Source of the DNA: Aromatoleum aromaticum EbN1 | GTDB taxonomy: Bacteria; Pseudomonadota; Gammaproteobacteria; Burkholderiales; Rhodocyclaceae | DNA: 64,000 bases | Assembly (NCBI RefSeq): GCF_000025965.1 | Contig: NC_006513.1 | Coordinates: 3,224,001 to 3,288,000 of the forward strand | Direction: 5' to 3' | Part shown: piece after piece, positions 45,028-64,000 of the stretch | How positions within the stretch are numbered: position 1 is the stretch's first letter | Layout of the letters: every line of letters begins with the position of its first letter | Notes under the pieces: model-generated | The model's database searches: none | What the model was told of the DNA's origin: nothing | Seen by the model: only the letters and a program-made list of their open reading frames with translations | Position numbers and translations under genes: made by a program

Positions 45028-45296
45028 GACGGCCCCCGGATCGTGTCGAGGATATTGCGCACGGACGGGCTCAGCGGGTTCCCGGTGCTGCTCTCGCGGT
45101 TCGCCCACAGTTCGCCGAGCACGAGCAAGGTAGCGGCGTCGCGGATCGGGTCTTCCGTCGACGGGTAGGCGTCGACGAATCCGCGATACGTCCTCACGAT
45201 CATCTCGGCGTGGTTCAGCTTCGTGTTCACCTCGGCGTCTTGCTCGCTGCCGTCGATTCGGAGGTGATACTTCGCGTCTGCAAGGCTGATAGTCAT
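45018..45296 (-). CDS. Phage head-tail connector (gp6-like)
   Basis: 92 residues. The helical pattern SLADAKYHLRIDGSEQDAEVNTKLNHAEMIVRTYRG and DAATLLVLGELWANRESST is typical of HK97 gp6-like connectors that sit under the portal. The ATG overlaps the portal stop by 4 bp. Confidence 0.87.
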   Translation of the reverse strand: MTISLADAKYHLRIDGSEQDAEVNTKLNHAEMIVRTYRGFVDAYPSTEDPIRDAATLLVLGELWANRESSTGNPLSPSVRNILDTIRGPSWA

Positions 45297-48420: not shown

Positions 48421-49932
48421 TCAGAGAAAGATCATCTGGTATTCGGGTTCGCGCTCTTCTTCTTCAACCTTGAACGCGGCGCTGAAGCACATCGCAAGGG
48501 AGACAATTCCGTCTATTCGGGCCGTGGCTTTCCGCTTCGAGAAGCGGCGCTGCCCTTCGGAGTTGATCTCGGTCACCGCGCCCGCTGCGGCCATCGTCAG
48601 AACCGGGTGCATTCCGTGGCGCAGGCGCTTGTTCAATAGCTCGGCCTCAAGGTTGCAGATGCCCGGATTCACGCCGTTGAACCCTTGGTGACACATCAGC
48701 AAGGGGACGGAGCAGCCGATCCGCTCGAACTCTTTTTTCAGGAAGTCGATACGGTGCGGGTCAAAGGCAATGGCCTTGATGTCGAGCCCGTCGCAAATCT
48801 CGGCGATGTCGCGGGCCACATATTCGTAATCGACCGTCTTGCCCGGTGTCGCGCGCAGGAAGCCTTGGTCGCGCCAGAGGTCATACGCGACGCGGTCGAC
48901 GCGGGCCCGGTCCATGATTCCCTCTGCCGGGGTCCAGAAGAAACTCTTGACGTGCCAGATCCCGGACGAATCGCGGCCGGTAAGCACAAGGCTCGTGAGG
49001 TCCGTACGCGTCGATAGGTCGAGCCCGCCCCACACTTCCAGGCCTTCGAGGCTATCGGGCATGGCGCCGCAGGACTCCCACACGGAGCGCGACACGAACG
49101 GGTTGCCGACTTCACAGCGCTGGTTCAGGCGGAAATTCCGGTGCGCAGGCTCGGCAGAGGGCATGCGCATGGCCTCTTCCGCCGAGTGCTTCAGGTCGTC
49201 GAAACTGGAAAACACGCCGGCTGCAGGGTTGGCGGCGCGCATCGCGTCTTCGTCATCAAGCGTGCAGTCTTTCGGCGCTTGATGGACGTGGCAGACTACG
49301 CGCGGGTCTTGGCTCTTTTCGGCGTCGTCGATGATGATTGAGAGCAAGTCAGCGTCGCTTGCCGCTTGCGTACTGATGATGAACGTGAGCGGGTTCTCGT
49401 ACGCGGCTTGAGCAGAGAAAAGGGCTTCGGCAAATTCGGAGCGGGGTCCGCGCACGCTGCCCAATTCATCGAACAGGACGAATACCGGGGACAGGCCCAG
49501 GGCGGTCGAGCCGACAGCGGCCAAGGCCTTGAAATGGGTTCCCATCGGCAAGCCGAAGAGTTCCTTGGTCGAGTCCTTGATGCGGACGAGGGCCGCCAGT
49601 TCGGGATTCAGCCGGACCATTTTGGCGGCGAGCTTGAAGACTAGCGACGCTTGATCGCGCGAGAGAGCGCCCGACACCAGTTGGGAATTTTGGACTGCTT
49701 CAGGTCCCACCAGATGCACCAGAATAAGAGCAGCCACCAGCGCAGATTTCCCATTCTTTCTCCCAACACTTAGGATCGCGCGGCGGGTTCCTACCGGATT
49801 GTCATAAACGGCCCTTACCCAGGCGGTCTGGAAAGGTTGAAGTTCCAGGCGATTGCCCACCAACGAACCCTCGGGCACGCGAATGTGTTTCTCGATGAAT
49901 GCAATGGCGAGGTCGGCGCGAGTCATGGTCAA
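48421..49932 (-). CDS. Terminase large subunit
   Basis: 503 residues. The packaging ATPase has a Walker-A-like SVGRKNGKSALVAAL near 55-69, Walker B VFVLFDELGS near 155, and a coupling motif FIISTQAA. The nuclease domain begins with WGGLDLSTRTDLTSLVL, continues AIAFDPHRIDF, and ends KATARIDGIVSLAMCFSAA with acidic metal ligands. Its ATG overlaps the terS stop by 4 bp. Intact, although its small-subunit partner is split. Confidence 0.93.
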   Translation of the reverse strand: MTMTRADLAIAFIEKHIRVPEGSLVGNRLELQPFQTAWVRAVYDNPVGTRRAILSVGRKNGKSALVAALILVHLVGPEAVQNSQLVSGALSRDQASLVFKLAAKMVRLNPELAALVRIKDSTKELFGLPMGTHFKALAAVGSTALGLSPVFVLFDELGSVRGPRSEFAEALFSAQAAYENPLTFIISTQAASDADLLSIIIDDAEKSQDPRVVCHVHQAPKDCTLDDEDAMRAANPAAGVFSSFDDLKHSAEEAMRMPSAEPAHRNFRLNQRCEVGNPFVSRSVWESCGAMPDSLEGLEVWGGLDLSTRTDLTSLVLTGRDSSGIWHVKSFFWTPAEGIMDRARVDRVAYDLWRDQGFLRATPGKTVDYEYVARDIAEICDGLDIKAIAFDPHRIDFLKKEFERIGCSVPLLMCHQGFNGVNPGICNLEAELLNKRLRHGMHPVLTMAAAGAVTEINSEGQRRFSKRKATARIDGIVSLAMCFSAAFKVEEEEREPEYQMIFL

Positions 49933-50191: not shown

Positions 50192-50286
50192 ATTCCGACC
50201 CAACGTGACCGCTGACTCCGAAATAGTGTGACCGGTGAATCCGCGGTCGTGACCGCGGATTCCGATTTGATCGTGACCGATTTCGG
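50192..50286 (+). repeat. Short tandem repeats in left end of IS21 element A
   Basis: Units starting with A-T/C/A-TCCG or ATTTCG at 50192, 50215, 50238, 50259 and 50280, most carrying GTGACCG at the end, spaced 21-23 bp. Inverted versions (CGGTCACG...TCGGAAT) follow to about 50345. They are probable transposase binding sites. Confidence 0.7.
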
Positions 50287-50420
50287 CGAGTTGTCGGAAT
50301 GGGCGGTCACGATGTCGGAATCAATGGTCACGATCAAATCGGAACGGGTTTGTGAGGCCAAGCGTGGCAACGTCGTTTGTCAGGCCGGCTACCCTCGCGC
50401 GCTTTGCGCGGAGACCGAGG

Positions 50421-50571
50421 ATGCCGGCGGAGCGGATTGCCATGCACAAGATCAGGGAGCTGTTACGGCTCAAATACGACTGCGCGCTGTCGCATGAGCG
50501 CATTGCCCGCGCGCTGTCGATTTCCAAAGGCGTGGTCGCCAAGTATGTGAAGGCGGCCGAGGAGTGCGGCC
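50421..50571 (+). pseudogene. istA: IS21 istA (element A), N-terminal piece
   Basis: 50 codons (MPAERIAMHKIRELLRLKYD... to VKAAEEC) of an IstA transposase, including its helix-turn-helix (SHERIARALSISKGVVAKYVK). It is cut by the IS66 element at 50572. Joined at the duplication GTGCGGCC to 53003-54411 it makes a 519-residue frame. Confidence 0.92.
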
Positions 50572-50599
50572 GTAAGCGGTAACTGACGAGCGTTCTTGA

Positions 50600-52216
50600 C
50601 TACTTCGAGATCCCGAAGAGATCGGATCGCAGCGGGTTGGCAGCGAAGTGCTGCTTCCACAGACGGGGGGTGAGTTGCGCGACGTCGGCAGCGGGGTGTT
50701 GGCCGACACGCTGCAGCACATCGACCAAATATTCGTACGGATCGATGTCGTGCAGCCGGCAGGTGGCGATCAGGCTCTGCGCGATGCCGACGTATTTGGC
50801 GCCGACCTCGGTCCAGCAAAAGAGCCAGTTGCGACGTCCCATGGGCACCACGCGCAACGCCCGCTCGAGATGGTTTGTGTCGATCGACACTTCGGGGTCG
50901 CGCAGGTACACCTCGAGGGCGGCACGGCGCTCCCGCACATAAGCCATGGCGGTGGTGAGCGGCGAACTGGGCAGCAAGCCGTGGGTGTCGAACTGGGCAT
51001 CGACCCAGGCGAAGAACTCGTGGACCACGGGCTGTGCATGCTCGATCCGGTACGCCCGGCTCGCCTCGCCGACGAGCGTGGCCTCGCGGATGCGTTTCTC
51101 GACTGCATAGAGCTTGCCGATCATCTCCAGCGCCCGGCCCGCACGCTCGGGCTCGACCGACTGGGCGTCGAAGAACTTCCTCCTCGAATGCGCCCAGCAT
51201 TGAGCGTGCGTGAGTCCGCACTTCTCGGCATAGCGTTCGTAGACTCCATAGCCATCGGTGAGGAGCACCGCCCCCTCGGGGGGCGGGTCAGTGCCCAGGA
51301 TCTGCTCGATGTGCTGCGCCTTGCGGCTCTCGTGATAGACGAAACAGATCTCGTCACGTTCGCCATAGACCGGCCAGAAATAGCCGCCTTTCATCTTGCC
51401 GGGGCCAGCACGGCCGGCCTTGATCGGGGTCTCGTCCATCGCCTTGACCCGCGACAGCCGAATCGAGCCGAGCTGTGCGGTGAAGACGGGTTCGAGCAGC
51501 GCGAGCGCGCTATGGGTGAGCTGCGTGAGCCACGGGCGCGACACCCTGATGCCATTGTCCCCCAGTCGCTGGTGCTGGCGGTAGAGCGGCTGGTGATAGC
51601 AGAACTTGTCCGTGATGAGCCCGACGACAAAGCTCACATCAGCGCGGCTACCCTCGATGACACCCCTGGGCGCCGCGGGGCAGGAGATGAGCTGCGTGTT
51701 GCGAAGCTTGATCACCGGGCGCACGTATTTGAGGATGACGTAGCTGCCCGGGCGCTGCGCGAGCCGGAAACTCGTCTTCTCACCGATCACCTCGAACTGA
51801 CCGGGAGCGAGCCCCTCGGCCTCGGGGTTGGGCACCTCGATCGTCTCGACCGGCACCCGGGCCTCGTCGAAGAACAGCGCCGACTCGTCGCCCTTGGCGC
51901 AGTCGCTGGTCCGGGCCCGTCGGGTATGGGCGGCAATGTCCTGGGCGGGGGGCGGCGGCGAGGATCCGGGCACCGGCAACTCGCCCAGACTCATCTGATG
52001 TGGGTTGGCGTCCACGATGCGCTTCTCGCTCTTCTGGCCGAAGAGCTGCCGACGGAACCAGTCGAGCTGGTGGCGCATCGCCTCGAATTCGCCTTTGATG
52101 ACCTCGAACTGGCGCTGCTGCGCCAAGTGCGCGCCCGCCAGTTCGACGACCTGATCGGCCGTCCACTGGGCGGCTTCTTCACGGGTCGGCAGCTGCGTCA
52201 AAGGCGTCTGAGGCAT
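50600..52216 (-). CDS. tnpC: IS66 transposase TnpC
   Basis: 538 residues. The N-terminal leucine-zipper/HTH region (about 20-90) ends in FRRQLFGQKSEKR. Next come the zinc-binding ISCPAAP region and a DDE domain with Asp in KAMDETPIKA, Asp in LLTDGYGVYE and Glu in DTNHLERALRVVPMGRRNW, and the C-terminal IDPYEYLVDVLQRV segment common to the family. Intact. Confidence 0.95.
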   Translation of the reverse strand: MPQTPLTQLPTREEAAQWTADQVVELAGAHLAQQRQFEVIKGEFEAMRHQLDWFRRQLFGQKSEKRIVDANPHQMSLGELPVPGSSPPPPAQDIAAHTRRARTSDCAKGDESALFFDEARVPVETIEVPNPEAEGLAPGQFEVIGEKTSFRLAQRPGSYVILKYVRPVIKLRNTQLISCPAAPRGVIEGSRADVSFVVGLITDKFCYHQPLYRQHQRLGDNGIRVSRPWLTQLTHSALALLEPVFTAQLGSIRLSRVKAMDETPIKAGRAGPGKMKGGYFWPVYGERDEICFVYHESRKAQHIEQILGTDPPPEGAVLLTDGYGVYERYAEKCGLTHAQCWAHSRRKFFDAQSVEPERAGRALEMIGKLYAVEKRIREATLVGEASRAYRIEHAQPVVHEFFAWVDAQFDTHGLLPSSPLTTAMAYVRERRAALEVYLRDPEVSIDTNHLERALRVVPMGRRNWLFCWTEVGAKYVGIAQSLIATCRLHDIDPYEYLVDVLQRVGQHPAADVAQLTPRLWKQHFAANPLRSDLFGISK

Positions 52217-52244
52217 GGCGTCATTTTACCAAAAACGCCAGCAT

Positions 52245-52604
52245 TCATACGGGTTTGCGGTTACTTTCTGGAAGCGCAAAGCGCTTTTTGAAGCGTGCCG
52301 GCTCGATGCCCTCGAGCAGCAGTTTCAGCCCCGTCCAGTCCATCTCGCGGGTGGCCACCCGCGACCAATCCGACACGAAACGGCCCGACTCGAGCCGCTT
52401 GGCCCAGATGCAAAAGCCGCTGCGATCCCAGTACAGGACCTTCATCTGGGTCGCGCGGCGGCTGATGAACACGAACAGATGCCCCGACAACGGATCCTGT
52501 CCCACGCCGTGGCGGGCGAGCGCATACAAACCGTCGAAGGATTTGCGCATATCGACCGGGCGCCCGTACAGATGCACCCGCACCGCGCCTTCGGGAAAGA
52601 ACAT
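52245..52604 (-). CDS. tnpB: IS66 accessory protein TnpB
   Basis: 119 residues. VRVHLYGRPVDMRKSFDGLYALARHGVGQDPLSGHLFVFISRRATQMKVLYWDRSGF is the family signature (IS66 Orf2). Required for transposition in the family; its biochemical role is not settled. Coupled to tnpA by a one-base overlap at 52604. Confidence 0.95.
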   Translation of the reverse strand: MFFPEGAVRVHLYGRPVDMRKSFDGLYALARHGVGQDPLSGHLFVFISRRATQMKVLYWDRSGFCIWAKRLESGRFVSDWSRVATREMDWTGLKLLLEGIEPARFKKRFALPESNRKPV

Positions 52605-52909
52605 CAGCCGCGCACCAGATGCAGCACGACGCCGTCACCCAGATCAAGCTTCAACTCCCAGCGCGAAGTACCGCCCGACCCCAGCACTCCCAGATCAACG
52701 AAGGCCTCTTTCCGAGTCGCCCCGCCAGCGACTGCCTTACCGCACACCGGACCGACCGTCGCTCGCCAGCGCTGAAAGCTCGAGACGCTGATCGACTCGC
52801 GCGCGCAGAATGCCGTGACGCTCAGCCCACTCGAACCGTGTCGGGCGAAAACCTCCTGCCACTCCTCTCGGCTGCGCCGGCGCCAATTGCGCTTGAGCAC
52901 TCCTGCCAT
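52604..52909 (-). CDS. tnpA: IS66 accessory protein TnpA
   Basis: 101 residues from the ATG at 52909, which has GGAGG 7 bases upstream; the in-frame codon further up (52942) lacks this. The N-terminus RNWRRRSREEWQEVFARHGSSGLSVTAFCARESISVSSFQRWRA is a helix-turn-helix typical of IS66 Orf1. Confidence 0.9.
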   Translation of the reverse strand: MAGVLKRNWRRRSREEWQEVFARHGSSGLSVTAFCARESISVSSFQRWRATVGPVCGKAVAGGATRKEAFVDLGVLGSGGTSRWELKLDLGDGVVLHLVRG

Positions 52910-53002
52910 GAACGATCCCTCCATTGCTGAGCCTGGAGGCAATTGTCCACGTCGATCACGGGCCCAGGAATAACGCCGGTCAGTTACCGCTTACGTGCGG
53001 CC

Positions 53003-54411
53003 GGCCGTGGGCCGAGTTGTCGGCGGCCGACGAGGCCGAGTTGCGCCGGGTGCTGGGGGTCGCCCGGCGTGGACGTGGCGCGAGCGTCGCGAATGTGCCG
53101 CCGGATCTGGCGGCGGTGCATCAGGGGCTCAAGCGAAAGAACGTCACGCTGGCGCTGCTGTGGGAAGAGTACGTGCAGACGGCCGACGGGCCGAGCTATC
53201 AGTACTCGCGCTTTTGCGACCTGTACCGCGCGTTCGCCCGCACGCTCAAGCGCTCGATGCGCCAGGTGCACCGCGCCGGCGAGAAACTCTTCATCGATTA
53301 CGCGGGCGACACGGTGCCGATCGTCGACGCCGACACGGGCGAGATTTCGCGCGCGCAGATCTTCGTCGCGGTGCTCGGCGCCTCGAGCTATACGTTCGCC
53401 TGCGCCACGGCGACGCAGTCGCAGGCCGACTGGCTGGGCTCGCTCGCGAAGGCGCTCAGCTTCATCGGCGGCGTGCCCGAGCTCGTGGTGCCCGACAATA
53501 CGCGCTCGCTCATCGGTCAAGCCGACCGCTACGAGCCGCAACTGCAGCGCACCACCGCCGAGTTCGCCGCGCACTACGGCGTGGCGATCCTGCCCGCGCG
53601 CCCCTACAAGCCGCAGGACAAGGCCAAGGTCGAAGTCGGCGTACAGATCGTGCAGCGCTGGATTCTGGCGCGGCTGCGGCATCAGCGTTTCTTCTCGCTG
53701 GGAGAGTTGAACGAGGCGATCGCCGCGTTACTCGAGCCGCTGAACACGCGTGCCTTCCGGCGCCTGCCAGGCTCGCGCCACGAAGCGTTCGAGACGCTCG
53801 ATCGGCCGGCGCTGCGCCCGTTGCCCGCCACCGCGTTCCAGTTCGCCCAGTGGAAACGGGCCAAGCCCAATATCGATTACCACGTCGAGTTCGACGGGCA
53901 TTACTACAGCGTGCCGTATGCGCTCGCCGGCCAAGCGGTGGAGTTGCGCATCACCGCGAGCAGCATCGAATGCTTTGCCGCGGGCCGTCGCGTCGCGGTG
54001 CATGCGAGAAGCCACCGGCCCGGCGTCTACTCCACGCTCACCGAGCACATGCCCGCATCGCATCAGGCGCACCGTCAGTGGTCCCCGGGCAAACTCATCG
54101 CCTGGGGCGCCACGGTCGGGCCTCACACCGAGCAGGTGGTCAGCCACCAACTCGAACGCATGCCGCACCCCGAGCAGGGCTACCGGGCGTGCCTCGGGCT
54201 GATGCGCCTCGGTCGTCAATACGGCAACGAACGCCTCGAAGCCGCGGCGACCCGCGCCGTCACCCTCGGGGCGATGCGTTACCGCAACGTCGCCTCGATC
54301 CTCAAGAGCGGGCTCGACCGCGCGCCGCTCCCCGCATCCACTGCGCAGCAAAGCGAGCTCGCGCTACCGGCCGCTCACGAGAACCTGCGCGGGGCGCGCT
54401 ACTACCACTGA
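53003..54411 (+). pseudogene. istA: IS21 istA (element A), main piece
   Basis: 469 codons resuming in the same frame as 50421-50571. The DDE catalytic core shows FIDYAGDTVPIVD, PELVVPDNTRSLI and a Glu-bearing KAKVEVGVQIVQRW. Alone it lacks the DNA-binding N-terminus, so the element should be immobile unless supplied in trans. An accidental start at 52924 gives a longer but spurious frame through the IS66 end. Confidence 0.92.
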
Positions 54412-54433
54412 TTCCACCCACCGGAGAACATCG

Positions 54434-55168
54434 ATGCTGATGCAACACAGCCTGCAACAACTGCGCACCCTGCGCCTGGAAGGCATGGCCCGCGCCTTCG
54501 AGGAGCAGCTCACCCAGCCCGCCATCACCGCGCTCAGCTTCGAGGAGCGTTTCGCCCAGCTCATCGATCGCGAGATCCTGCTGCGCGACGGCAAACGCAT
54601 CGATCGGCTGCTCAAGGCCGCCCGCATCAAAGCCGCTGCCGCCTGCCTGGAGGACGTCGACTACCGCGCCGGCCGGGGCCTCGAGCGCAGTCAGATCGCC
54701 GCGCTCGGAACCGGCCAGTGGATTCGCCACCACCAGAACTGCCTCATCACGGGCCCCACCGGCAGCGGCAAGACGTGGCTCGCCTGCGCGCTCGCCAACG
54801 CGGCGTGCCGGCAGGGCCTCGCGGCCTACTACGTGCGTCTGCCGCGGCTCTTCGAAGAGCTGCGCATCGCGCATGCCGATGGCAGCTTCAGCCGACGCCT
54901 GATGCAGCTCGCGCGCATGGATCTCATCGTCATCGACGATTGGGGCCTGGCCGCGCCGTCGGCGCAGGAGCGAAGCGACCTGCTGGAGCTGCTCGACGAC
55001 CGCGTCGGCACGCGTTCGACCGTGATCACCAGCCAGCTGCCGATCGAGCACTGGCACACCTACCTGGGCGACCCGACCTTCGCCGATGCGATCCTCGATC
55101 GCGTCGTGCACGCCGCGCACAAGCTCGCCCTCAAGGGCGAGTCGATGAGGAGAAAGGAAAAGGCATGA
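54434..55168 (+). CDS. istB: IstB helper ATPase (IS21 element A)
   Basis: 244 residues. AAA+ ATPase with Walker [15 protein letters not shown] near 101-114 and Walker [11 protein letters not shown] near 160, C-terminal to a helical IstB N-domain. It selects target DNA for IstA. Intact, 22 bp after istA. Confidence 0.95.
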
Positions 55169-55373
55169 GGCCGTGCGCGCGAGACGCCTTACCCACAGGC
55201 GCCCGCCCGCCAGCGTATGAGGCGCGCTGGCGGCCGCCTGTGGATAAGCCTGCGCCGTGCCCCGAATTGACCGTGATCGTGACCGACACGGTTAGAATCT
55301 GAACCCCACGCTTGCGCGCGCCCCCCCCGGTCACGTTCGTCGGTGCAGGCGGTCACGTTCGTCGGAATGCGCA

Positions 55374-55580
55374 TTCGACTGCAGCAAGGTCGCGGCAGAG
55401 CGCAGCGGCGATATACAGGTCGCTCGGCGTCCAGGCCGTGGCGCGCTTGGAGCGGATGACGTCATCCCAGAAGAGGAGGGCATCGTCATCGAGCGGGACC
55501 GGCGACACGGGCAGGGGCAAGCTCGCTTCCTGCGCGGCGGCAGCGGCGAACTTCAGCGAGTTGGCGTCAACCTTGCTCAT
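55374..55580 (-). pseudogene. Terminase small subunit, N-terminal piece
   Basis: 69 codons (MSKVDANSLKFAAAAAQE... ALCRDLAAVE) up to the IS21 duplication TTCGAC. Continuation is at 50180-49929. WTPSDLYIAAALCRDLAAVE fits the P27 small-terminase helix. A purine-rich site precedes the ATG. Confidence 0.9.
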
Positions 55581-55637
55581 TTTTTCAGCCTTTTTTTCCG
55601 AACGAAGAAAAAGACGACTCCGGGCGCGCTTGACAAA

Positions 55638-55982
55638 TCATAAAAAGTGTGGAACATTTTTCGCCCCCCTAGGAGCGGACACGTCGGCCACGCGCAGGTT
55701 CTCGATGCGGTCGTCAAGTACATCGTCATTCCGGCGACCGAGCACGCGGTCAGGCCATACGCCGTAGTGCCAAGCCCAGGTCAGTTGTCCGCGTGTGTAG
55801 CGCACGCGCTTGTACTGAATGACGTGCTGCTCGCGGCCTCGATCGCACGGGCGGCGACGTTGAACTGCTCCGGCAAGGGTTCCCGCGCGGGTGCCCTTGC
55901 TCGGCTGGATGCGCCAGTACAGGGCGCCGTCGCGATAGTCGAAGATGTCGCGCACTTCGGCGGCGTTCAGGGCATAGCTCAT
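55638..55982 (-). CDS. Degenerate HNH-type phage protein
   Basis: 114 residues from the ATG at 55982, which overlaps the preceding gene's stop (ATGA). The body FDYRDGALYWRIQPSKGTRAGTLAG... YKRVRYTRGQLTWAWHYGVWPDRV...DDRIENLR is that of phage HNH endonucleases. The usual Asp-His-Ile segment before the DDRIENLR motif is instead VLGRRNDD, so a catalytic histidine appears lost. Possibly inactive or repurposed. Confidence 0.75.
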   Translation of the reverse strand: MSYALNAAEVRDIFDYRDGALYWRIQPSKGTRAGTLAGAVQRRRPCDRGREQHVIQYKRVRYTRGQLTWAWHYGVWPDRVLGRRNDDVLDDRIENLRVADVSAPRGAKNVPHFL

Positions 55983-56264
55983 TCCCATCCCCTTTCCGCG
56001 CCATGCGGTGCGGTCCACGCAAGGTTGCCGGCAGTGAATGACGGCTCGCGCTTGACGATGCTCACGGCCTCGTCCGCGCCGGGCCACTTGATCGGATGCC
56101 CGAGCTGGCGCTCAGCGATCCCGCGCAGGTGCGCGAGCTTGTCGGCGTCGCTCTTACCTTCGAGTCCGGGCAGTGCAGCTTCCAGGCGCTCGGCAAGGGC
56201 CCGCAGGCGGGACTGGCCGGTGCGGGCCTCATCACGTCGCTGCGCAATGCGCGTGCGCTGGTAG
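55979..56264 (-). pseudogene. Cys-rich phage protein, C-terminal piece
   Basis: About 93 codons (RTRIAQRRDEARTGQSRLRA... to APHGAERGWE) of a gene whose first 24 codons are at 62276-62348. The IS21-family element B sits between them. Bases 56260-56264 (GGTAG) are the target duplication. Rejoined frame: 117 residues. The family was not recognised. Confidence 0.88.
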
Positions 56265-56271
56265 TGTCACC

Positions 56272-56415
56272 GATCGCCGTAATGGCGCCAAAGCGGGATC
56301 GGCGTAAAGGCGCCACGTGGTGATCGGCGTTATGGCGCCAGTGCCGGATCGGCGTAAAGGCGCCAGCCGGTGATCGCCGTATAGGCGCCACCGCAAGATC
56401 GCCGTAAAGGCGCCA
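56272..56415 (+). repeat. Six direct repeats, exact 25-bp period
   Basis: The 19-bp unit GATCGSCGTWAWGGCGCCA occurs at 56272, 56297, 56322, 56347, 56372 and 56397. Two inverted copies lie at the right end (62226-62244 and 62250-62268). Each unit faces the same DNA side after roughly 2.4 turns. They are probable IstA binding sites. Confidence 0.88.
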
Positions 56416-56502
56416 GGAGGCGGCGCCGAGAGGAAGAAGTCAGCGTTTCGAACGTCCACCCACCGGGCTTAACCTGCCGAGTTTTTTCGGCCGGAAGAGT
56501 CC

Positions 56503-57120
56503 ATGAGCAAACGGAGGTTCGAGATGTATCAATACCGACAGGTCCTGGTGCGCATGCGCCAGGGAGACGCCGACCGCGACATCGAGCGCTCGGGGCTGAT
56601 GGGGCGCAAGAAGCTCTCACGACTACGCAAGACCGCGCAGGATCACGACTGGCTGGCGGCGGAGCGTCCGCTCCCCGAGGACGCCGAGCTGGCGGCGGTG
56701 TTCCAGGAACGGCCGCTACCGGCGAGCTGCGTATCGAGTCTGGTCGATCACCGCGAGCGGATCACCGCATGGGTCGAGGCTGGCGTTGCCGGCACTGCGA
56801 TTCATGCCGCATTGGTCAGGAACCACGGTTACGCGGGGAGCTACTCCTCGGTCCGCCGCCTGCTTCAGTCGATCGACGCGAGCACGCCGCCGGCCTCGAC
56901 TTGTCGCCTCGATTTCGAAGCGGGTGAGGCCGGCCAGGTCGATTTCGGCGCCGGCCCGGTGATGACCGACGTGATGACTGGGGCCAGCTTCAAGACCTGG
57001 TTCTTCGTCATGACACTTGCCTGGAGTCGCCACCAGTACGTCGAGTTCGTCCGCGACCAGACGGTCGAGACCTGGCTGGCCTGCCACCGCAATGCGTTCC
57101 AGTGGTTCAACGGCGTCGTC
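56503..57120 (+). pseudogene. istA: IS21 istA (element B), N-terminal piece
   Basis: 206 codons (MSKRRFEMYQYRQVLVRMRQ... FQWFNGVV). The HTH region is followed by the start of the catalytic domain (GQVDFGAGPVMTD). It is cut by the IS3-family element after a GTC that is duplicated at 60079-60081. Joined to 60082-61005 it gives 513 residues in frame. Confidence 0.92.
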
Positions 57121-57210
57121 AGAGCGGGCCCCGGAAATTCGGACAGCCGGATAGGTGGTAGCCTTGCCCCAGCGATGGCCGCGTGAGCGGCCCTGAAATG
57201 GAGCAAGAGC

Positions 57211-57516
57211 ATGACGAGAAGGAAACGGCGAAACCACTCGCCGGCGTTCAAGGCGCAAGTGGCGGTGGCCGCGCTCAAAGGAGACAAGACGCTGGCCGAG
57301 CTGGCGCAGCAGTTCGACGTCCATCCGAACCAGATCGCCGACTGGAAGAGCCAGTTGATGGAGCGCGCCGCGCACGTGTTCGGTGACGCCTCGGCGACCG
57401 CGACCGCCGCACCGGATCTGACGAAGCTGCACGCCAAGATCGGGCAGCTGACGCTGGAGAATGATTTTTTAGAAAGCGCGCTCACCAAGGCGGGCCTGCT
57501 GAGCGCAAGAAAATGA
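57211..57516 (+). CDS. IS3-family OrfA (transposase HTH subunit)
   Basis: 101 residues. NHSPAFKAQVAVAALKGDKTLAELAQQFDVHPNQIADWKSQLM is the helix-turn-helix, followed by a leucine zipper (LTKLHAKIGQLTLENDFLESAL). Its 3' part contains the frameshift signal TTTTTTA and overlaps orfB by 4 bp. Confidence 0.93.
   Translation: MTRRKRRNHSPAFKAQVAVAALKGDKTLAELAQQFDVHPNQIADWKSQLMERAAHVFGDASATATAAPDLTKLHAKIGQLTLENDFLESALTKAGLLSARK
57465..57471 (+). promoter_or_regulatory. Slippery heptamer TTTTTTA for OrfAB fusion
   Basis: Read T TTT TTA in the orfA frame; slipping -1 enters the orfB frame upstream of its ATG (57513). This is the usual way IS3-family elements make the fused OrfAB transposase. Confidence 0.85.
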
Positions 57517-57987
57517 TCGACCGCACCCATGAACTGCCGCTGACGCAGCAATGCCGGATTCTGCGTCTGGCGCGCTCGTCGATGTACTACACGCCGCGAG
57601 AAGTGTCGGCGCACGATCTGGCGCTGATGCGCCGGATGGACGAACTGCATCTCGAGCACCCGTTTGCCGGAGCGCGGATGCTGCGGGATTTGCTGCGCGC
57701 CGAGGGGCATGCGATCGGGCGCAAGCACGTCGGCACGCTGATGCGCCGCATGGGCATCGAGGCGCTCTATCGCAAGCCCAACACGTCCCGGCGCCGCCGC
57801 GGTGACGAGATCTATCCGTACCTGCTGCGGGATCTGAAGATCGAACGCCCCAACCAGGCGTGGGCCGCCGACATCACCTACATCCCGATGCGCAAGGGTT
57901 TCGTGTATCTGTTCGCCATCATCGATTGGTCCTCGCGCCGAGTGCTGGCGTGGCGGCTGTCGAACACGCTGACCACCGACTTCTGCC
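57513..57987 (+). pseudogene. IS3-family orfB, N-terminal piece
   Basis: Starts in the -1 frame relative to orfA. It carries the HTH_21 region (HPFAGARMLRDLLRAEGHAIGRKHVGTLMRRMGIEALYRKPN) and the first catalytic Asp in [26 protein letters not shown]. It is cut in the middle of the catalytic core by the IS4-family element. Bases 57979-57987 (ACTTCTGCC) are the target duplication. Confidence 0.92.
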
Positions 57988-59465
57988 CATGTCGTTATAC
58001 ACAACTCAGGCCGCCTCATCGCGTAGCGCCTGTATGGTGGCGGCGGCATCCATGACGCGCTGCAAGCCCAGCCAGATGGTCTTCACACCCGGCTCGCCGT
58101 CGCCCTTGCGCGCCAGGAAGCCGCCGAGGGTGGCGATCAGGCGCAGCACTTCGTTGATGGTGGGCGGGGTGGCGGGCGGTTTCTTCTTCGTGAGCAGATA
58201 CGCGCCGCGGATCTCGTCGGGGTCGAAGAAGAGCGTGGCATCCAGCTCGGGGCAGGTTCGGCCGGTGCGCATCAGATGCGCGATGCGCCAGGCGACGACC
58301 ATGAACAACGCCAGCGCGCGCTCCAGGCGCTCGATGGCGGACAGTTGCAGCGCTTCGATCCGACAGCCGTTCTTGAGCACGTGAAAGAAAGTCTCGATCT
58401 CCCAGCGCGCCCGATACCAGTCGATCAGCTCGACCACGTCGGCAGCCGTCGCAGCTTCCCGGTTGGTGAGCAGGCGCCACTCCACGGGCTTGGTGCCGGC
58501 CGGCGCGCCGATCTCGCGCGCCACGATGCAGGTGGCCGATACCGTGCCCGCCTTGCCCGCAGGCAGGCTGACCCGTCGGGCCCACAGTTGCTGGCGCACC
58601 TCGCGCGCCTTCTGGCCGTGGCGCGAGCCCATCGTGAACACGATCTCGCCCAGCGGCTCGCCTGCGCAGGTGTGCGACCACAGCTTCGCGCCCTCTGGCA
58701 AGCAACGGTTGTGCTTGGCCCGCACCAGCCAGTCGGCCGGCGTGCCCAGCGTCTGGGCGCGCAGCATCATTTCCATCAGATCCGCTTCGCGGTCGGCTAC
58801 ATACACCAGGCGGGTGGTCGCCATCCCCGTGGCCAACTCCGCGACCCGCTCGTAGCCTTCGGGCCAGCGCGCGCTCTCCTTGATGCTGGTGCGCTCGCCT
58901 GGTTCATCGACATCCTCGCGCGCCCACATCCACGCATCGAGCACGCCCAGCGGTTCGCGCTCGGGCGTCACCGCATAGGTCGGGTGCAGGTACATGCCGC
59001 GGCGCGCCTCGTAGTTCAGCCGCCCCAGACCCGCGATGCCCTGCCCGTTGAAGTCCAGCTCGGTCGTGTCCTGCAGGCACAACACCACCGGATGGGCACG
59101 CATGCGGCTGCGGGTGCGCTCCCAATGCGGCGCCAGGATCGCCTGCCAGTCGACCTCGTCGTTGCCCAGGAAGCGGTACGCGCCAACCGTCTCGCCCCAG
59201 CCCCGGCACGCCATCGGAATGCCCGCCGTCGGCTTCGCCGACAACCGCTCCATCAGCACCTTCGCCCGCTTGTTCAGTCTCTCGTCGCCCAGCGCCATCC
59301 CCGCAAACTCCTCCACCACCCAGCTCTTCGTCGCCAACAGGTCACCCAAATTGCAAAAGTAGACGCGTTTTTATATGGGTTTACAAGCACTTCGTGTAAG
59401 TCATTGAAGGTCAACGATTATTCAGATCGGCGTGCCGGCGGTGCGGAGTTGTGTATAACGAGATG
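57988..59465 (-). mobile_element. IS4-family element inside IS3 orfB
   Basis: 1478 bp. 20-bp inverted repeats with one mismatch: CATGTCGTTATACACAACTC on the left and CATCTCGTTATACACAACTC on the right. 9-bp duplications ACTTCTGCC lie at 57979-57987 and 59466-59474. It contains one complete transposase gene and is the innermost, youngest insertion of this nest. Confidence 0.95.
58006..59349 (-). CDS. IS4-family (Tn5/IS50 type) transposase
   Basis: 447 residues. The N-terminal domain (GDERLNKRAKVLMERLSAKPTAGIPMACRGWGETVGAYRFLGNDEVDW) matches Tn5-type transposases. Catalytic residues are an Asp in CLQDTTELDFNGQ, an Asp in YVADREADLMEM and the YREK-type motif in WYRARWEIETFFHVLKNGCRIE. Intact, with its stop inside the left inverted repeat region. 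Confidence 0.95.
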   Translation of the reverse strand: MGDLLATKSWVVEEFAGMALGDERLNKRAKVLMERLSAKPTAGIPMACRGWGETVGAYRFLGNDEVDWQAILAPHWERTRSRMRAHPVVLCLQDTTELDFNGQGIAGLGRLNYEARRGMYLHPTYAVTPEREPLGVLDAWMWAREDVDEPGERTSIKESARWPEGYERVAELATGMATTRLVYVADREADLMEMMLRAQTLGTPADWLVRAKHNRCLPEGAKLWSHTCAGEPLGEIVFTMGSRHGQKAREVRQQLWARRVSLPAGKAGTVSATCIVAREIGAPAGTKPVEWRLLTNREAATAADVVELIDWYRARWEIETFFHVLKNGCRIEALQLSAIERLERALALFMVVAWRIAHLMRTGRTCPELDATLFFDPDEIRGAYLLTKKKPPATPPTINEVLRLIATLGGFLARKGDGEPGVKTIWLGLQRVMDAAATIQALRDEAA

Positions 59466-59474
59466 ACTTCTGCC

Positions 59475-59833
59475 TCGATGCGGTGCGCGAAGCGCTGCAT
59501 CGCTACGGCCGCCCGGAGATCTTCAACACCGATCAGGGATGCCAGTTCACCAGCACCGATTTCACCGACCTGCTCAAAGACAACGGCATCCAGATCAGCA
59601 TGGACGGCAAGGGCTGCTGGCGCGACAACGTCTTCGTCGAGCGGCTGTGGAAGAGCGTGAAATACGAAGAGGTGTACCTCAAGGCCTATGACAGCGTCGC
59701 CGAGGCCAAGGCCCACCTGGGCGCCTACCTGCGCTTCTACAACGAACGCCGGCCGCACCGCGCTCACGACGGGCGCACCCCCGACCAGGCGTACTTCGGC
59801 GCGCTCCGCGATGAGACGCCGCTGGCGGCATGA
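59475..59833 (+). pseudogene. IS3-family orfB, C-terminal piece
   Basis: Continues orfB (LDAVREALHRYGRPEIFNTDQGCQFTS...) with the second Asp in NTDQGCQFTS and the Glu in CWRDNVFVERLWKSVKYEEVYL. Joined to 57513-57987 it makes 277 codons in frame. Ends DETPLAA. Confidence 0.92.
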
Positions 59834-60081
59834 CGGCACAAAGGCTGGCTCCGTGGATTTATGGACGATGCGCTTCGCGCACCGGGCCGCTTGCCGTGGA
59901 AAAGTCTGACGACTTTCCCACCGCGCAGCCCTTCGCCCACAAGCTCCACCGAGCTCGAACCGATTTTTATAAAATATGAGAAAGTCAAAACCAACCCAGA
60001 CCTCGGGCCCCCGGCCCTAACCGGCAAGGCTCCACTTATCGAACCGGATTCCCTGTCCAGACAATCGGGGCCACCTCTGTC

Positions 60082-61005
60082 GCCCGGGTCATCATCGACA
60101 ACCCCAAGTGCGCGATCACCCGCGCCTGCACCCGCGACCCGCAGGTGCAGCGCGCCTACGCCGAGTGTGCCGAAGGATTCGGTTTCAGGATCTCCCCGTG
60201 TCCGCCGGCCGATCCCCGTAAAAAAGGGATCGTCGAGTCGGGAGTAAAATATGTCAAACGCAACTTTTTGCCGCTGCGCGAGTTCAGGAGCCTCGCCGAC
60301 GCCAACCGGCAGGTGGCCGACTGGGTCATGGGCGAGGCCGGCAACCGCTGCCACGGGACGACGCGCGAGAAGCCGCTGACGCGCTTTGCCTCGGTCGAGA
60401 AGGCGCTCCTGCTGCCGCTGCCGACGGTGCCGCCGGTCCTGGCCACTTGGGTGAAGGTGACGGTCCATCCCGATACGCACGTCAAATTCGGACTCTGCCT
60501 CTACTCGGTGCCGTTCCGCCTCGTCGGGCAGGAACTGTGGCTACGGGCGACGCACACCTCGGTACAGGTGTTCCACGAGCACCAGCTCATCGCCAGTCAT
60601 CCGCGGCTCAAGGATCCGGGGCGCCGCTCGACGGTGCGCGACCATCAGCCGCTCGAGGCGCAGGCCTATCAGCTGCGCGATCCGCAGTGGTGCCTCGAGG
60701 CCGCGACCCGGATCGGTTCGGCCTGCGCGGCGCTGATCGAGGCGCTCTTCGCCGACCGCGTCCTCGACAACCTGCGGGCCGCCCAGGGCATCGTCCGCCT
60801 GGCCAAGACCTACGGCAGCGCGCGCCTGGAGGCCGCCTGTGTCCGGGCGCTGTCCTTCGGCAGCCCGCGCTACCGCACGGTCAAGACGATCCTTGCCAAG
60901 GGGCTCGACCAACAGGCGGCGCAGAGCTCGTTCGATGCGCTGGCCGAGACCTATACCCGCGGCGGGCGCTTCTGCCGCGATACCAAATCCCTGCTGACCC
61001 ACTAA
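60082..61005 (+). pseudogene. istA: IS21 istA (element B), C-terminal piece
   Basis: 307 codons (ARVIIDNPKCAITRAC... DTKSLLTH) continuing from 57120. It contains the second catalytic Asp (IIDNPKCA) and Glu (KKGIVESGVKYVKRNFLP). The C-terminal beta-barrel is complete. istB follows 12 bp downstream. Confidence 0.92.
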
Positions 61006-61017
61006 AGGCGCATCATC

Positions 61018-61806
61018 ATGAATCCGATTCCCGAACTCACTGCGTTCCTCAAGCAACTGCGCCTGTCCGGCATCCTCGATTCGCTCGATCTGCGGAACCG
61101 CCAGGCGATCGAGGGCAAACTCGCCTACACCGAATTCCTCTCCATCCTGATCGGCGACGAGGTCGCCCGGCGCGACCAGAAGAAGGTGGCGATGCGCCTG
61201 CGGCGCGCCAATTTCCGCGGCGAGAAGACGATCGAGGCGTTCGACTTCGACCGCCTGCCGAACCTCAATCGCAGCCTGATCCAGGATCTGGCGACCGGCC
61301 GCTACCTGAGCGAGAAGGTGGCCATCCTGATCGCCGGCCCGTGCGGCACGGGCAAGAGCCATCTGGCGCAGGCGCTCGGCCATTGCGCCGTGCGCCAGGG
61401 GCATGACGTCGTGTTCACGATGCAGACGCAACTCGTCGGCTCGCTGCACGCCGCGCGCGCCATCGGCAGCTTCGAGCGGCGCTTCCAGCAATTGGCTCGT
61501 GTGCCACTCCTGGTGATCGACGATTTTGGTCTGAAACCCCTTCGTCCACCGCACGACGAAGATTTCCACGACCTCGTCGCCGAGCGCTACGAGCGCGCAT
61601 CAACGATCGTGACGAGCAACCTGGACTATGACGAATGGGGCGATGCCTTCCCGGCCAACCGCATGCTCGGCGCCGCCACCCTCGATCGGCTGCGGCATGG
61701 CGCCTACCGCGTCGTCCTCGACGGTGAGAGCTACCGCGCGCCGAAGCCATCGCCGGACTCGACCAGGGCGCCCGCGCGCTCGCCGGCGGCGGCCAAGGCG
61801 CGCTGA
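61018..61806 (+). CDS. istB: IstB helper ATPase (IS21 element B)
   Basis: 262 residues. Walker A is IAGPCGTGKSHLAQAL near residues 103-118 and Walker B VPLLVIDDFGLKPL near 163-176. Intact. It differs clearly in sequence from the istB of element A, so the two IS21 elements are different species of the family. Confidence 0.95.
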   Translation: MNPIPELTAFLKQLRLSGILDSLDLRNRQAIEGKLAYTEFLSILIGDEVARRDQKKVAMRLRRANFRGEKTIEAFDFDRLPNLNRSLIQDLATGRYLSEKVAILIAGPCGTGKSHLAQALGHCAVRQGHDVVFTMQTQLVGSLHAARAIGSFERRFQQLARVPLLVIDDFGLKPLRPPHDEDFHDLVAERYERASTIVTSNLDYDEWGDAFPANRMLGAATLDRLRHGAYRVVLDGESYRAPKPSPDSTRAPARSPAAAKAR

Positions 61807-62275
61807 GGACGCCAGCCGTTTGCAGCGCCGTCCTCGGCGCTGCAAACCCCTTCAGCGGCGATCCCGCGGCCTCAACCCCCTGGGGCTCCGCCCCACACCC
61901 CGCGCTCGCCGCGGGGCAGCCGCCGGGGATGAAAAACATCCCCGGCACCTCCCCGGAGCATTGGCCACCCTCCACGGCGTCAAGGGGCTTTCGCGGCATA
62001 AACGGGCCGATGAAACCGGCCCATTTATTCCACGGTCCCCGTGACCCCGTTCCAGGCGAAAAGCCGGCCCCGCATCGTCCCGCTTTCGCCGGCGTCCGCC
62101 GGGTCCGTCCGCCCCTTTCTGAGCCTTCCATAACGCATATTTCGGTCCAATTCGACCCTTGCGCTTATGAGCGTTTTACCCCATCCTCCGCACCGTTCGA
62201 AACGCCACTTTCAAACCCCTCCAAGTGGCGCCATTACGCCGATCATGCCCGGCGCCTTTATGCCGATCCGTGACA
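61807..62275. other. Non-coding 3' end of IS21 element B
   Basis: 469 bp from the istB stop to the element end. It holds a perfect 13-bp hairpin (61818-61830 with 61835-61847, loop TCCT) 11 bp after istB without a T-tract, and the two right-end transposase repeats. I see no gene in it. Confidence 0.75.
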
Positions 62276-62348
62276 GGTAGTGCACGCTGCAGAGGTCCTT
62301 GCAGTACACGGGGCGGTCACAGCCCGGTTCCGAGCAGGTGCGGGTCAT
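62276..62348 (-). pseudogene. Cys-rich phage protein, N-terminal piece
   Basis: 24 codons starting at the ATG 62348 (MTRTCSEPGCDRPVYCKDLCSVHY), which overlaps the upstream HNH stop (ATGA). The four-cysteine pattern C-x4-C-x5-C-x3-C followed by H suggests a small zinc-binding module. The rest of the gene is at 56259-55979 beyond IS21 element B. Too short to appear as a gene by itself. Confidence 0.88.
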
Positions 62349-62653
62349 TCGTCCACCTCACGCAGCCAAGGGTGGCGTGGGTCCAGGGGGAAGCCCTCAA
62401 GGGAGCTGCCGCGCAGGTGGCCCGACTTCTCGTAGGCTTGTTTACAAGACGAATGGCATGTAGCACAGAGAGACTGCAAGGCTCCCGTCCAGAAGCTGCG
62501 AATCGGGTCCTCGGCCTTGCGCCAGGGCTCGACGTGATCGGCGACAGTCGCAGGCTCGATACGTCCGGCAGCGCGGCAAAACGCGCACAGCGGGTGCAGC
62601 GCTAGCTGCGCTGCTCGTCGGCGTTGCCAGGCTCTGCTCGCGTAAAAGGCCAC
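62345..62653 (-). CDS. Phage HNH endonuclease (packaging-associated)
   Basis: 102 residues from the GTG at 62653, preceded by GAGAG. A TTG further up (62671) would sit within about eight bases of the predicted mRNA start without a ribosome-binding site. Two CxxC zinc pairs (CAFC, CATC) flank VADHVEPWR with the catalytic His, and ALQSLCATCHSSC replaces the common NLQSLC asparagine. HNH proteins beside the terminase are known to assist packaging-end cutting in HK97-like phages. Confidence 0.88.
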   Translation of the reverse strand: MAFYASRAWQRRRAAQLALHPLCAFCRAAGRIEPATVADHVEPWRKAEDPIRSFWTGALQSLCATCHSSCKQAYEKSGHLRGSSLEGFPLDPRHPWLREVDE

Positions 62654-62666
62654 GTGGTCTCTCAAA

Positions 62667-62681
62667 TGCAACTAAGTTGCA
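62667..62681. promoter_or_regulatory. Palindromic operator-like site
   Basis: TGCAACTAAGTTGCA is a perfect 15-bp dyad covering the predicted transcription start (about 62678) of the packaging operon. This is where a repressor would block polymerase. Confidence 0.6.
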
Positions 62682-62684
62682 CTA

Positions 62685-62712
62685 AGAATACCTGATATAC
62701 GGTAGATGTCAA
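62685..62712 (-). promoter_or_regulatory. Promoter of the phage packaging/head operon
   Basis: On the minus strand TTGACA (62712-62707), 16 bp, TATTCT (62690-62685), pointing into the HNH-terminase-capsid genes, which are largely coupled by 4-bp overlaps. Confidence 0.65.
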
Positions 62713-62784
62713 GCGCAAGGGCTTGAAATTGCTGATTATTTTGCTTGGGGTGGGGTCGAGGTCGAGGTCGAGGGCACACTCCCG

Positions 62785-62847
62785 CAGCGTTCCCAGCGTT
62801 CCCAGCGTTCCCAGCGTTCCCAGCGTTCCCAGCGTTCCCAGCGTTCC
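62785..62847 (+). repeat. Seven perfect tandem copies of CAGCGTTCC
   Basis: A 9-bp unit starts at 62785 and repeats without error seven times. An eighth copy at 62850 pairs with an inverted one to form the 17-bp palindrome AGCGTTCCGGGAACGCT (62851-62867). Another single copy begins at 62908. Confidence 0.95.
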
Positions 62848-63020
62848 CGCAGCGTTCCGGGAACGCTCAAACCCGCGCCAGCAAAGGGATTCAGCCCGAT
62901 TTTGCCCAGCGTTCCGGGGGAGACACGTGTACACAAGGAATTGCCCACAAGGGTGCTCTAACAAGGTGTGCTTTTGTTGGGAGGGTGTGTGTGTCTATAT
63001 ATATAGGTAAAAACAGCCTA

Positions 63021-63149
63021 GAACCCTTGTGGCTACTGGGGTTGAGCGTTCCCGGAACGCTCGGGAACGCTAGAGGGCAAATCGGCCTGAAACCCTTGTG
63101 GTTACTGGGTTTCAGCGTTCCCGTGAATTCCGGGAACGCTCGGAACGCT
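63021..63149 (+). repeat. Duplicated module with AGCGTTCC/GGAACGCT palindromes
   Basis: A 34-bp segment at 63021-63054 recurs at 63090-63123 with a few mismatches (69-bp offset), both containing CCCTTGTGG and ending in AGCGTTCCCG. Palindrome AGCGTTCCCGGAACGCT lies at 63045-63061. AGCGTTCCCG and CGGGAACGCT face each other at 63114-63140, with further GGAACGCT copies at 63064 and 63142. Confidence 0.9.
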
Positions 63150-63163
63150 GGATGCGACCCCTC

Positions 63164-63190
63164 AAAGAAAAAGCGCCCCGAAGGGCGCCT
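63164..63190 (-). terminator. Intrinsic terminator of the DUF3987-type gene
   Basis: Minus-strand stem GGCGCCC / GGGCGCT around a TTCG tetraloop (63189-63183, 63178-63172), followed by a T-rich tail (complement of the A-run 63164-63172). Confidence 0.85.
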
Positions 63191-63208
63191 TGTTGGGCTC
63201 GGACTCGA

Positions 63209-64000
63209 TCAGAGCAGGTGTAACAGGCGGATGGACTTGTTCGGACCGGGCACGTCGTCCACCTCGTGGGCCAGCTCATCGAGAGCGACAAGGTGCTCGA
63301 CAGCAGCATCGAACTCGCGTGCGGCCAACTTCGTGCGACGCAGCGCGGCGCTGCGTGTTACGCGGCTGGCAGGCTGGTACTTCGCCTCCTGCTTGCTCAG
63401 CGTGGCGGCGGGGCGCTCCAGCAACTCGGCGAGGGCCCTGCGCACCTTGGCAGCATTGGCCTGAACCTCGCCCTCGTGCATGTGCTCGCTCACGAACGCG
63501 AGCATCGTGCGGTCGGACGCTTCAACGAGCTTGTTTGCCCATAGTACGTGCTCGGCGCGAATTTCGGGCGCTTCAGGGTGATCCCACACTGCCAGGACGC
63601 CCGCCACGCGGAACGTCTTCTCGAAGCTGCGAACGAGCAGCGCCTTGCCGGTCGGGTCCGCTGCATCCGCCTTGTGGGAGCAGGCGATCTGACGCTCCTT
63701 GAGCATCGCCACCGCCTTGTGATGAATCGCGATGCCCATCGGGTTGCGGCCCGCTTCGCTGATGCGCTCGGCTCGGCGCTCCACCTCCCACGGCATGTCG
63801 GGTGCGCTCATTGTCCACTGCGGCACGACGTTGTCCCGGCCTCGGGCCATCAGGAAGCGCCCCAGCAGGCCGTCCGTGATGTTGCCCGCCTTGAGCTTTT
63901 CGCCGAGCGTGTGCGGGGTGCTGAACCCGATGATGTTCATGCACGGGTTCTGCAGGCTTCGCGCCTCGCGCCCCTTCACCCGGGCAAGTGCTCTGGTTGT
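63209..64000 (-). CDS. Phage replication protein, DUF3987-type, 5' end outside window
   Basis: At least 263 residues, open through the window edge; the GTG at 63979 is not a credible start because the frame continues beyond it. NPCMNIIGFSTPHTLGEKLKAGNITDGLLGRFLMARGRDN is the conserved core of DUF3987 proteins, which are fused or linked to phage/plasmid primase-helicase ATPases. The C-terminal half is helical (VLWANKLVEASDRTMLAFVSEHMHEGE). The ATPase part would lie to the right of the window. It ends in its own terminator. Confidence 0.75.
   Translation of the reverse strand, partial: TTRALARVKGREARSLQNPCMNIIGFSTPHTLGEKLKAGNITDGLLGRFLMARGRDNVVPQWTMSAPDMPWEVERRAERISEAGRNPMGIAIHHKAVAMLKERQIACSHKADAADPTGKALLVRSFEKTFRVAGVLAVWDHPEAPEIRAEHVLWANKLVEASDRTMLAFVSEHMHEGEVQANAAKVRRALAELLERPAATLSKQEAKYQPASRVTRSAALRRTKLAAREFDAAVEHLVALDELAHEVDDVPGPNKSIRLLHLL

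Follow-up and report, generated by a model that had tools for sequence, protein, structure and literature searches.

A repeat array behind a primase/helicase gene as the probable replication origin of a degraded prophage in Aromatoleum aromaticum EbN1

In a stretch of 64,000 nucleotides from the genome of Aromatoleum aromaticum EbN1 (contig 1, positions 3224001-3288000; hereafter termed the window), the DNA between a phage primase/helicase gene and a gene for an HNH endonuclease contains a dense array of the eight-letter word AGCGTTCC. We propose that this array is probably the iteron cluster of the replication origin of a temperate phage, situated immediately downstream of the gene for the phage's own initiator. 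The proposal draws on features that were computed directly, namely the array, its place, its layout in two sets, the recurrence of comparable arrays next to the 3' ends of helicase genes and a joint change of word and C-terminal domain in another helicase family. In the proposed mechanism, a DNA-binding domain at the C-terminus of the helicase would recognise the words, and copies of the protein would assemble on both iteron sets and melt the AT-richer DNA in between, where they would then be loaded for unwinding and priming. We infer from these features that the helicase of the window would bind its array, that the strands would open there and that replication would start at this site. Origins of this kind are known; what varies here is that the helicase is not of the D5 type and that the phage possesses genes for head and tail.

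The array and its surroundings

The array comprises 16 exact copies of AGCGTTCC at 62786-63149, 11 in forward and five in inverted orientation. Counted on both strands of the entire window, the word is found 19 times, compared to a mean of 3.36 and a maximum of 9 in 100 whole-window shuffles. In the order of the forward strand, seven tandem words and two that face each other precede an isolated word; DNA of lower GC content with alternating GT and TA comes next, and then a second cluster of six words (Table 1). The seven forward words succeed each other with an exact spacing of 9 bp (62786-62847), a regularity that is also identified by Tandem Repeats Finder (62785-62858, period 9, 8.0 copies), and three pairs of words face each other (62851/62860, 63045/63054 and 63114/63133). 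The numbers of forward and inverted words, the seven tandem 9-mers and the three facing pairs are as described in a first-pass annotation of the window made from the letters alone, which had also noticed a duplicated module and put its length at 34 bp. The duplication is present, with an actual length of 69 bp (63002-63070 and 63071-63139, 77% identity). The AT-rich DNA with alternating TA and GT that had been described alongside is equally found, with the GC content reaching a minimum of 0.40 between the word clusters (62975-63024), compared to 0.56-0.70 across them; an equally low value of 0.40 is reached beyond the array at 62650-62699. The stretch between the two sets is a candidate for the unwinding element. 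As a separate observation, a piece of 32 nucleotides of the module (63086-63117, CCTGAAACCC..GGGTTTCAGCG) is 91% identical to DNA preceding the transposase gene of the insertion sequence IS66, at four places of the genome (L004-L007), which may be due to chance.

The seven perfect tandem 9-mers would be expected of a functionless repeat that has grown by slippage. We consider such an origin of the array hardly credible, given that nine further copies are dispersed in both orientations and that comparable arrays with other words recur at the same place.

With respect to its neighbours, the array is found immediately 3' of the helicase gene, whose stop at 63209 is followed by a terminator-like stem-loop at 63191-63170 and by the first words from 63149. 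The first-pass annotation had assigned this gene a terminator of its own and had placed a packaging promoter on the other side of the array. The stem-loop is there, but its score alone is not significant since shuffled sequences yield 1.0 such sites, compared to 0.2 for the promoter-like site predicted from sequence at 62712-62685. This site, which is only 73 bp away from the first word, together with the facing pairs that look like dimer operators, could suggest that the array is bound by a phage regulator that controls the neighbouring packaging promoter. We regard this as quite improbable, since an operator would not need as many as 16 words, arranged in two sets that enclose AT-rich DNA, and since in family A2, described below, the word is tracked by the C-terminal domain of the helicase and not by the next open reading frame, in a comparison that did not extend to the regulators of these phages.

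Arrays at the ends of other helicase genes

The assignment as an origin is supported by the recurrence of arrays behind relatives of two other helicase families, which were fetched by protein. For each locus, a scan identified the most clustered exact 7-mer; the procedure is blind to the word of the window and misses degenerate iterons. From the first family, three of 54 loci were dropped (L225 and L243 as near-duplicates and L256 as incomplete) and from the second eight of 15 (L260 and L262 as near-duplicates of L261, and L266 and L268-L272 as incomplete or distant). With L091 added, 59 loci were obtained, in one of which (L239) the end of the match takes the place of the stop. Among these loci, 31 of the 33 with a top word of at least six copies carry this word at the helicase stop, compared to 4.1 expected, and six copies were reached in one of 295 shuffled sequences. 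Removal of six loci that had been chosen for their word leaves a set of 53, of which 27 have a top 7-mer of at least six copies. This 7-mer stands at the helicase stop in 25 of the 27, compared to 3.9 expected, and in none at the match start; the exceptions are L211 and L257. At a threshold of at least five copies, the ratio is 32 of 39 (5.4 expected). In 20 of the 53 loci, counts were lower or a six-copy word was absent, as far as this exact-match scan can judge. Given the relatedness of the loci, binomial values derived from these counts overstate certainty. As a control, the same scan recovers the words of the annotated crr (4314-4584) and ori (9310-9412) of phage P4, where it returns GGTGAAC at the ori, at the site of the annotated type 1 repeats. 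The words vary between phages and include GCGTTCC, CGTCCCC, CGTCCGC, CCGTCAG, CGTCACC, GGTGAAC, TGACACA, GTGACAC and others. The recurring feature is the place and the layout and not the word, and this distinction also bears on the conservation of word or spacing next to DUF3987 genes to which the first-pass annotation had tied its proposal: the word is phage-specific, whereas place and layout recur.

In the family of the window helicase itself, for which we kept the best 80 of 421 relatives from viral contigs (24-31% identity; 69 usable and 11 with less than 400 bp past the stop), the location at the stop is clear but weaker. Of 38 loci with a top word of at least five copies, 16 show all and 21 some of these words at the stop (4.8 expected), and seven of 15 do so at a threshold of at least six copies (1.9 expected). 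Judged by eye, the arrays of L323, L315 and L355 contain two sets flanking AT-rich DNA. In three of five named phages with distant relatives (Halfdan, Ssp-JY40 and Birtae), an array is found behind the gene, within about 650 bp. A different arrangement was observed in the three related loci L328, L335 and L342, where six or seven copies of GTTCGCA are located at a constant place about 1.0-1.4 kb past the helicase stop and not at the stop.

The array and its flanks showed no similarity to DNA of named phages, and the array pattern was detected in the own genome only, both among 17 genomes of the genus and among 398 genomes of the phylum. Close relatives of the helicase were absent from viral contigs, a search of 300 genomes of the order returned the own genome and a single weak partial match (37%, L011), and phrog_3022, the family of the helicase, is present in three of 274 genomes of the class, including the own. 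A 22-base pattern retrieved one viral contig (L012), and wider patterns matched 60 stretches of viral and at least 119 of genomic DNA, where the matches listed are mostly repeats in one orientation or located within genes. Of these stretches 11 were read closely and 12, picked for words in both orientations or close pairs, were mapped. In eight of the 12, the array is found at the 3' end of a primase/helicase gene (two of them, L025 and L029, are near-identical phages), and in L192, L193 and L021 an array stands without a neighbouring helicase gene. In a Gemmatimonadaceae genome (L159, 6065-6449), nine tandem and two inverted copies of GGAACGCT are embedded in degenerate 8-bp repeats, and this array looks like a different kind of repeat.

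L012 contains two arrays of AGCGTTCC, one behind its helicase gene (10026-10198) and a second beside the integrase (1520-1651), near a gene for a ParA-like protein. The proximity of latter gene would be expected if the array were a partition site equivalent to parS. No ParA-like gene was found among the named genes of the prophage in a search that did not cover every open reading frame, and we find a role in partition very doubtful. Both operators and a partition site, which the first-pass annotation had named as alternatives, are thus less likely than an origin.

Recognition of the word and comparison with known origins

The relation between word and protein is manifested in another helicase family, A2, whose members contain Prim-Pol, D5_N and DUF5906 domains. 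In the 28 pairs formed by eight proteins, the word and the C-terminal 71 residues co-vary without exception: the identity of these residues is 0.73-1.00 in the 11 pairs sharing a word and 0.44-0.51 in the 17 pairs with different words, while the identity of the rest of the protein ranges between 0.67 and 0.97 in both groups alike. Since L260 and L261, and L264 and L265, are near-duplicates, the number of independent cases is smaller than the number of pairs. The relation is illustrated by L260 and L264, whose helicases are 97% identical before the C-terminal domain and 51% within it, and whose arrays both contain nine copies in the same order, with GCGTTCC in the former and TGTGTCA in the latter. 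In an alignment of the two arrays, the 50 word columns are 46% and the spacers 74% identical, and in a comparison of L260 with L259, which shares its word, the words are 100% and the spacers 53% identical. L263 carries a third word, CCGTGYC, in an array of identical layout that is shifted downstream by about 540 bp. Terminase and next open reading frame do not track the word: the large terminases of L261 and L264 are 99% identical despite different words, and the next open reading frame reaches 96% identity in L260 and L264, whose words differ, and 82% in L260 and L261, which share theirs. The terminase comparison bears on a packaging site (cos or pac) read by the terminase, as might be considered from the position of the array between replication and packaging genes in the window, in L012, in L052 and in A2 phages. 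With different words next to near-identical large subunits, the only subunit compared, such a role is very improbable.

A model of the A2 C-terminal domain displays a winged helix (block-mean pLDDT, the predicted local distance difference test score, of 81-92; the rest of the model is poor), and in a fold comparison it is matched best by the DNA-binding domain of RFX (E 1.8e-3). RFX proteins prefer the X-box. The A2 helicase also matches the structure PDB 7ola, which we take to be that of a SaPI5 protein. In PMC10516667, the RFX DNA-binding domain is likened to the origin-binding domain of P4. Because word and C-terminal domain switch jointly and terminase and next open reading frame do not, the C-terminal winged helix of A2 helicases probably reads the word, and by analogy the window helicase may read its own word in the same way. 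In family A1, a permutation of word labels gave 0 of 2000 (35 loci), a result that we give little weight since it ignores relatedness and since the words were assigned by hand.

The layout of the array closely resembles the origins of Staphylococcus aureus pathogenicity islands (SaPIs) and other phage-inducible chromosomal islands (PICIs). As described in PMC6092414, these origins are located immediately 3' of rep and consist of two sets of iterons that flank AT-rich DNA. A PICI fragment that carries rep and ori replicates. The window shares this location behind an initiator gene, two sets of short repeats (62786-62867 and 63045-63149, flanking DNA with a GC content down to 0.40 and with one extra word at 62908) and the order of int, AlpA, primase and origin. 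In PMC7581432, the C-terminal domain of SaPI Rep is said to recognise iterons, and the isolated C-terminal domain of Cch2, a self-loading helicase, to bind the repeats located downstream of its gene. The array is not classified as a member of the SaPI/PICI group because helicase type and structural genes differ. The known initiators of this group have helicases of the D5/Primase_Cterm-like or DUF927 types, whereas by Pfam the window helicase lacks D5, DUF5906 and DUF927, as judged from a fragment with the gene pieces searched apart. Its element carries genes for terminase, capsid, portal, tail chaperone and tape measure and is not a satellite. The putative origin of the staphylococcal cassette chromosome mec (SCCmec) at Cch2 similarly combines repeats downstream of a helicase gene with binding by a C-terminal domain, but contains three 5-nt iterons in another type of element with another helicase. 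In the archaeal plasmid pRN1, the origin is also found downstream of the replication gene, whose protein ends in a winged helix (PMC4234260), but contains a large stem-loop and no iterons. The open-licence literature in PubMed Central describes satellites, P4, SCCmec and pRN1, and this class in phages was not found there.

In P4, the crr stands behind the terminator of alpha; its words point both ways, and it contains a 120-bp unit in duplicate that resembles the 69-bp duplicate of the window. It differs in its word, which is of the GGTGAACA-like type 1 in P4 (GTGAACA/GGTGAAC) and AGCGTTCC here, and in its protein, since alpha consists of Toprim, D5_N and DUF5906 domains with a Pox_D5 C-terminus (PF03288, 670-768), none of which is found in the window helicase. 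Its C-terminus shows no match to that of the window helicase. The crr is located directly 3' of alpha, with the ori carrying the same word about 5 kb away, and the array could by analogy be an accessory cis site that is bound by the helicase, with synthesis starting at a second array lost from the degraded prophage. The two arrays of L012, and L211, whose helicase gene has seven copies upstream of it and four at its 3' end, are in line with this possibility. We nevertheless consider it unlikely, since in PICIs the corresponding region is the origin itself (PMC6092414, as above) and no second cluster of AGCGTTCC is found elsewhere in the window or in 20 kb around the array in L008, the stretch of the own genome that holds the array and the DNA to the right of the window, from which part of the phage may be lost.

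Several observations weigh against the assignment of the array as an origin read by its helicase. The joint change of word and C-terminal domain was found in a different helicase family than that of the window and in few independent lineages, and the C-terminal fragment of the window helicase has no Pfam match and gave an unusable model (pLDDT 41). In 22 of the 38 five-copy loci of the window family, the word is, by strict count, found elsewhere. No such array is present in PaMx42 and RcSpartan, the remaining two of the five named phages, and Halfdan carries a stronger repeat than its array, within another stretch. Finally, the array of L184 is on the other side of a helicase-like gene, towards the integrase. 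Despite these points, the recurrence of arrays 3' of helicase genes, the satellite-like layout and the tracking of the word by the C-terminal domain in A2 make an iteron origin beside a replication gene, as already put forward in the first-pass annotation, the best fit.

The prophage and the significance of its origin

On the minus strand, genes for a tyrosine integrase, an AlpA-family protein and the primase/helicase are followed by the terminator-like site, the array, the promoter-like site and the HNH gene (Table 1). Downstream of latter, about 12 kb of IS66, IS21, Tn5-like and other transposase genes (50200-62275) separate HNH and terminase genes, with protease/capsid, portal, tail chaperone and tape measure genes following. 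Repeats at 56272-56414 and 62227-62268 are of the kind found at the ends of IS21-type elements. The element is therefore a degraded prophage that includes genes for head and tail; it is flanked by LepA past the integrase and by a trypsin/PDZ protease gene past the tape measure.

Table 1. Features of the prophage around the array. Positions refer to the window unless L008 is given.
Feature	Position	Strand	Basis or remark
Tyrosine integrase	L008 9483-10691	-	
AlpA-family gene	L008 9023-9262	-	Pfam
Primase/helicase gene, 3' part	63209-64000	-	phrog_3022; runs past the window to the IS66 insertion (L008 5091)
Terminator-like stem-loop of primase/helicase gene	63170-63191	-	
Second iteron set, six words	63045-63149		forward 63045, 63114; inverted 63054, 63064, 63133, 63142
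Duplicated 69-bp module	63002-63139		bears most of second iteron set
Second repeated word CCCTTGTGG, three copies mid-array	62945-63101		62945-62953 (inverted), 63024-63032, 63093-63101
Less GC-rich stretch between sets (GC 0.40-0.48)	62925-63024		composition, sequence; TGTGTGTGTCTATATATATA, alternating GT and TA
Lone AGCGTTCC between sets	62908-62915	+	
First iteron set	62786-62867		seven AGCGTTCC in 9-bp steps and facing pair (62851 forward, 62860 inverted)
Promoter-like site preceding HNH gene	62685-62712	-	TTGACA, 16, TATTCT
HNH endonuclease, first packaging-side gene	62345-62671	-	phrog_2323, 2.8e-30; Pfam HNH below cut-off
Terminase large subunit, past transposase nest	48421-49932	-	phrog_9, 1.4e-111
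Protease/capsid	46572-48410	-	PHROGs
Portal	45293-46507	-	PHROGs
Tail assembly chaperone	43567-43890	-	PHROGs
Tape measure	39848-43306	-	PHROGs

The helicase gene is split just right of the window by an IS66 copy with an 8-bp duplication, TGTACTGG (L008 5091-7531). The origin is thus probably a relic, with well-preserved words. Three more copies of this element are found in the genome, with identical DNA across the compared stretch. Both pieces of the gene, searched separately, match phage primases, with the fragment at L008 3209-5095 assigned to phrog_3022 ('DNA primase', 7.6e-52). The fragment has no Pfam match at E<=0.1, a result obtained with the two pieces searched apart only, and an NCBIfam search with five proteins was equally negative. 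The DUF3987 type proposed in the first-pass annotation thus applies at a distance, as the distant relative L276 matches this domain (5.9e-8), and not to the fragment itself. DUF3987 domains are predicted helicases according to PMC5862659. The own genome harbors a second integrated element (contig 1, 428000-440000, L273) with an integrase and a RecA-like (AAA_25) primase/helicase, where seven AGCGAACCCC-type words, different from that of the window, are found at the end of the primase/helicase gene (L273 5874-6010).

We give even chances to a broader proposition: the satellite-type origin would not be restricted to satellites and would be a widespread class in tailed phages that is served by several types of helicases, in which the word and the C-terminal winged helix switch together while the remainder of the replicon stays nearly identical. 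The common theme of words such as GCGTTCC, CGTCACC, CGTCCGC, GTTCACC and TGTGTCA may reflect a single RFX-like mode of reading. If this proposition holds, a switch would prevent phages that share a host from activating the origins of one another, and the EbN1 genome does contain the second element with its own word. The A2 phages, with three words in nearly the same replicon, constitute a natural experiment from which a recognition code of the winged helix could be derived. The probable origin in the window was placed by sequence alone, and it yields a simple rule, to search behind the helicase gene, which was obeyed by 25 of 27 strong arrays among relatives of the two other helicases and, less strongly, in the family of the window helicase. 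For DUF3987-related domains, the finding suggests where the origin is located, and it extends the layout of satellite-type origins to phages with terminase, capsid and tail genes.
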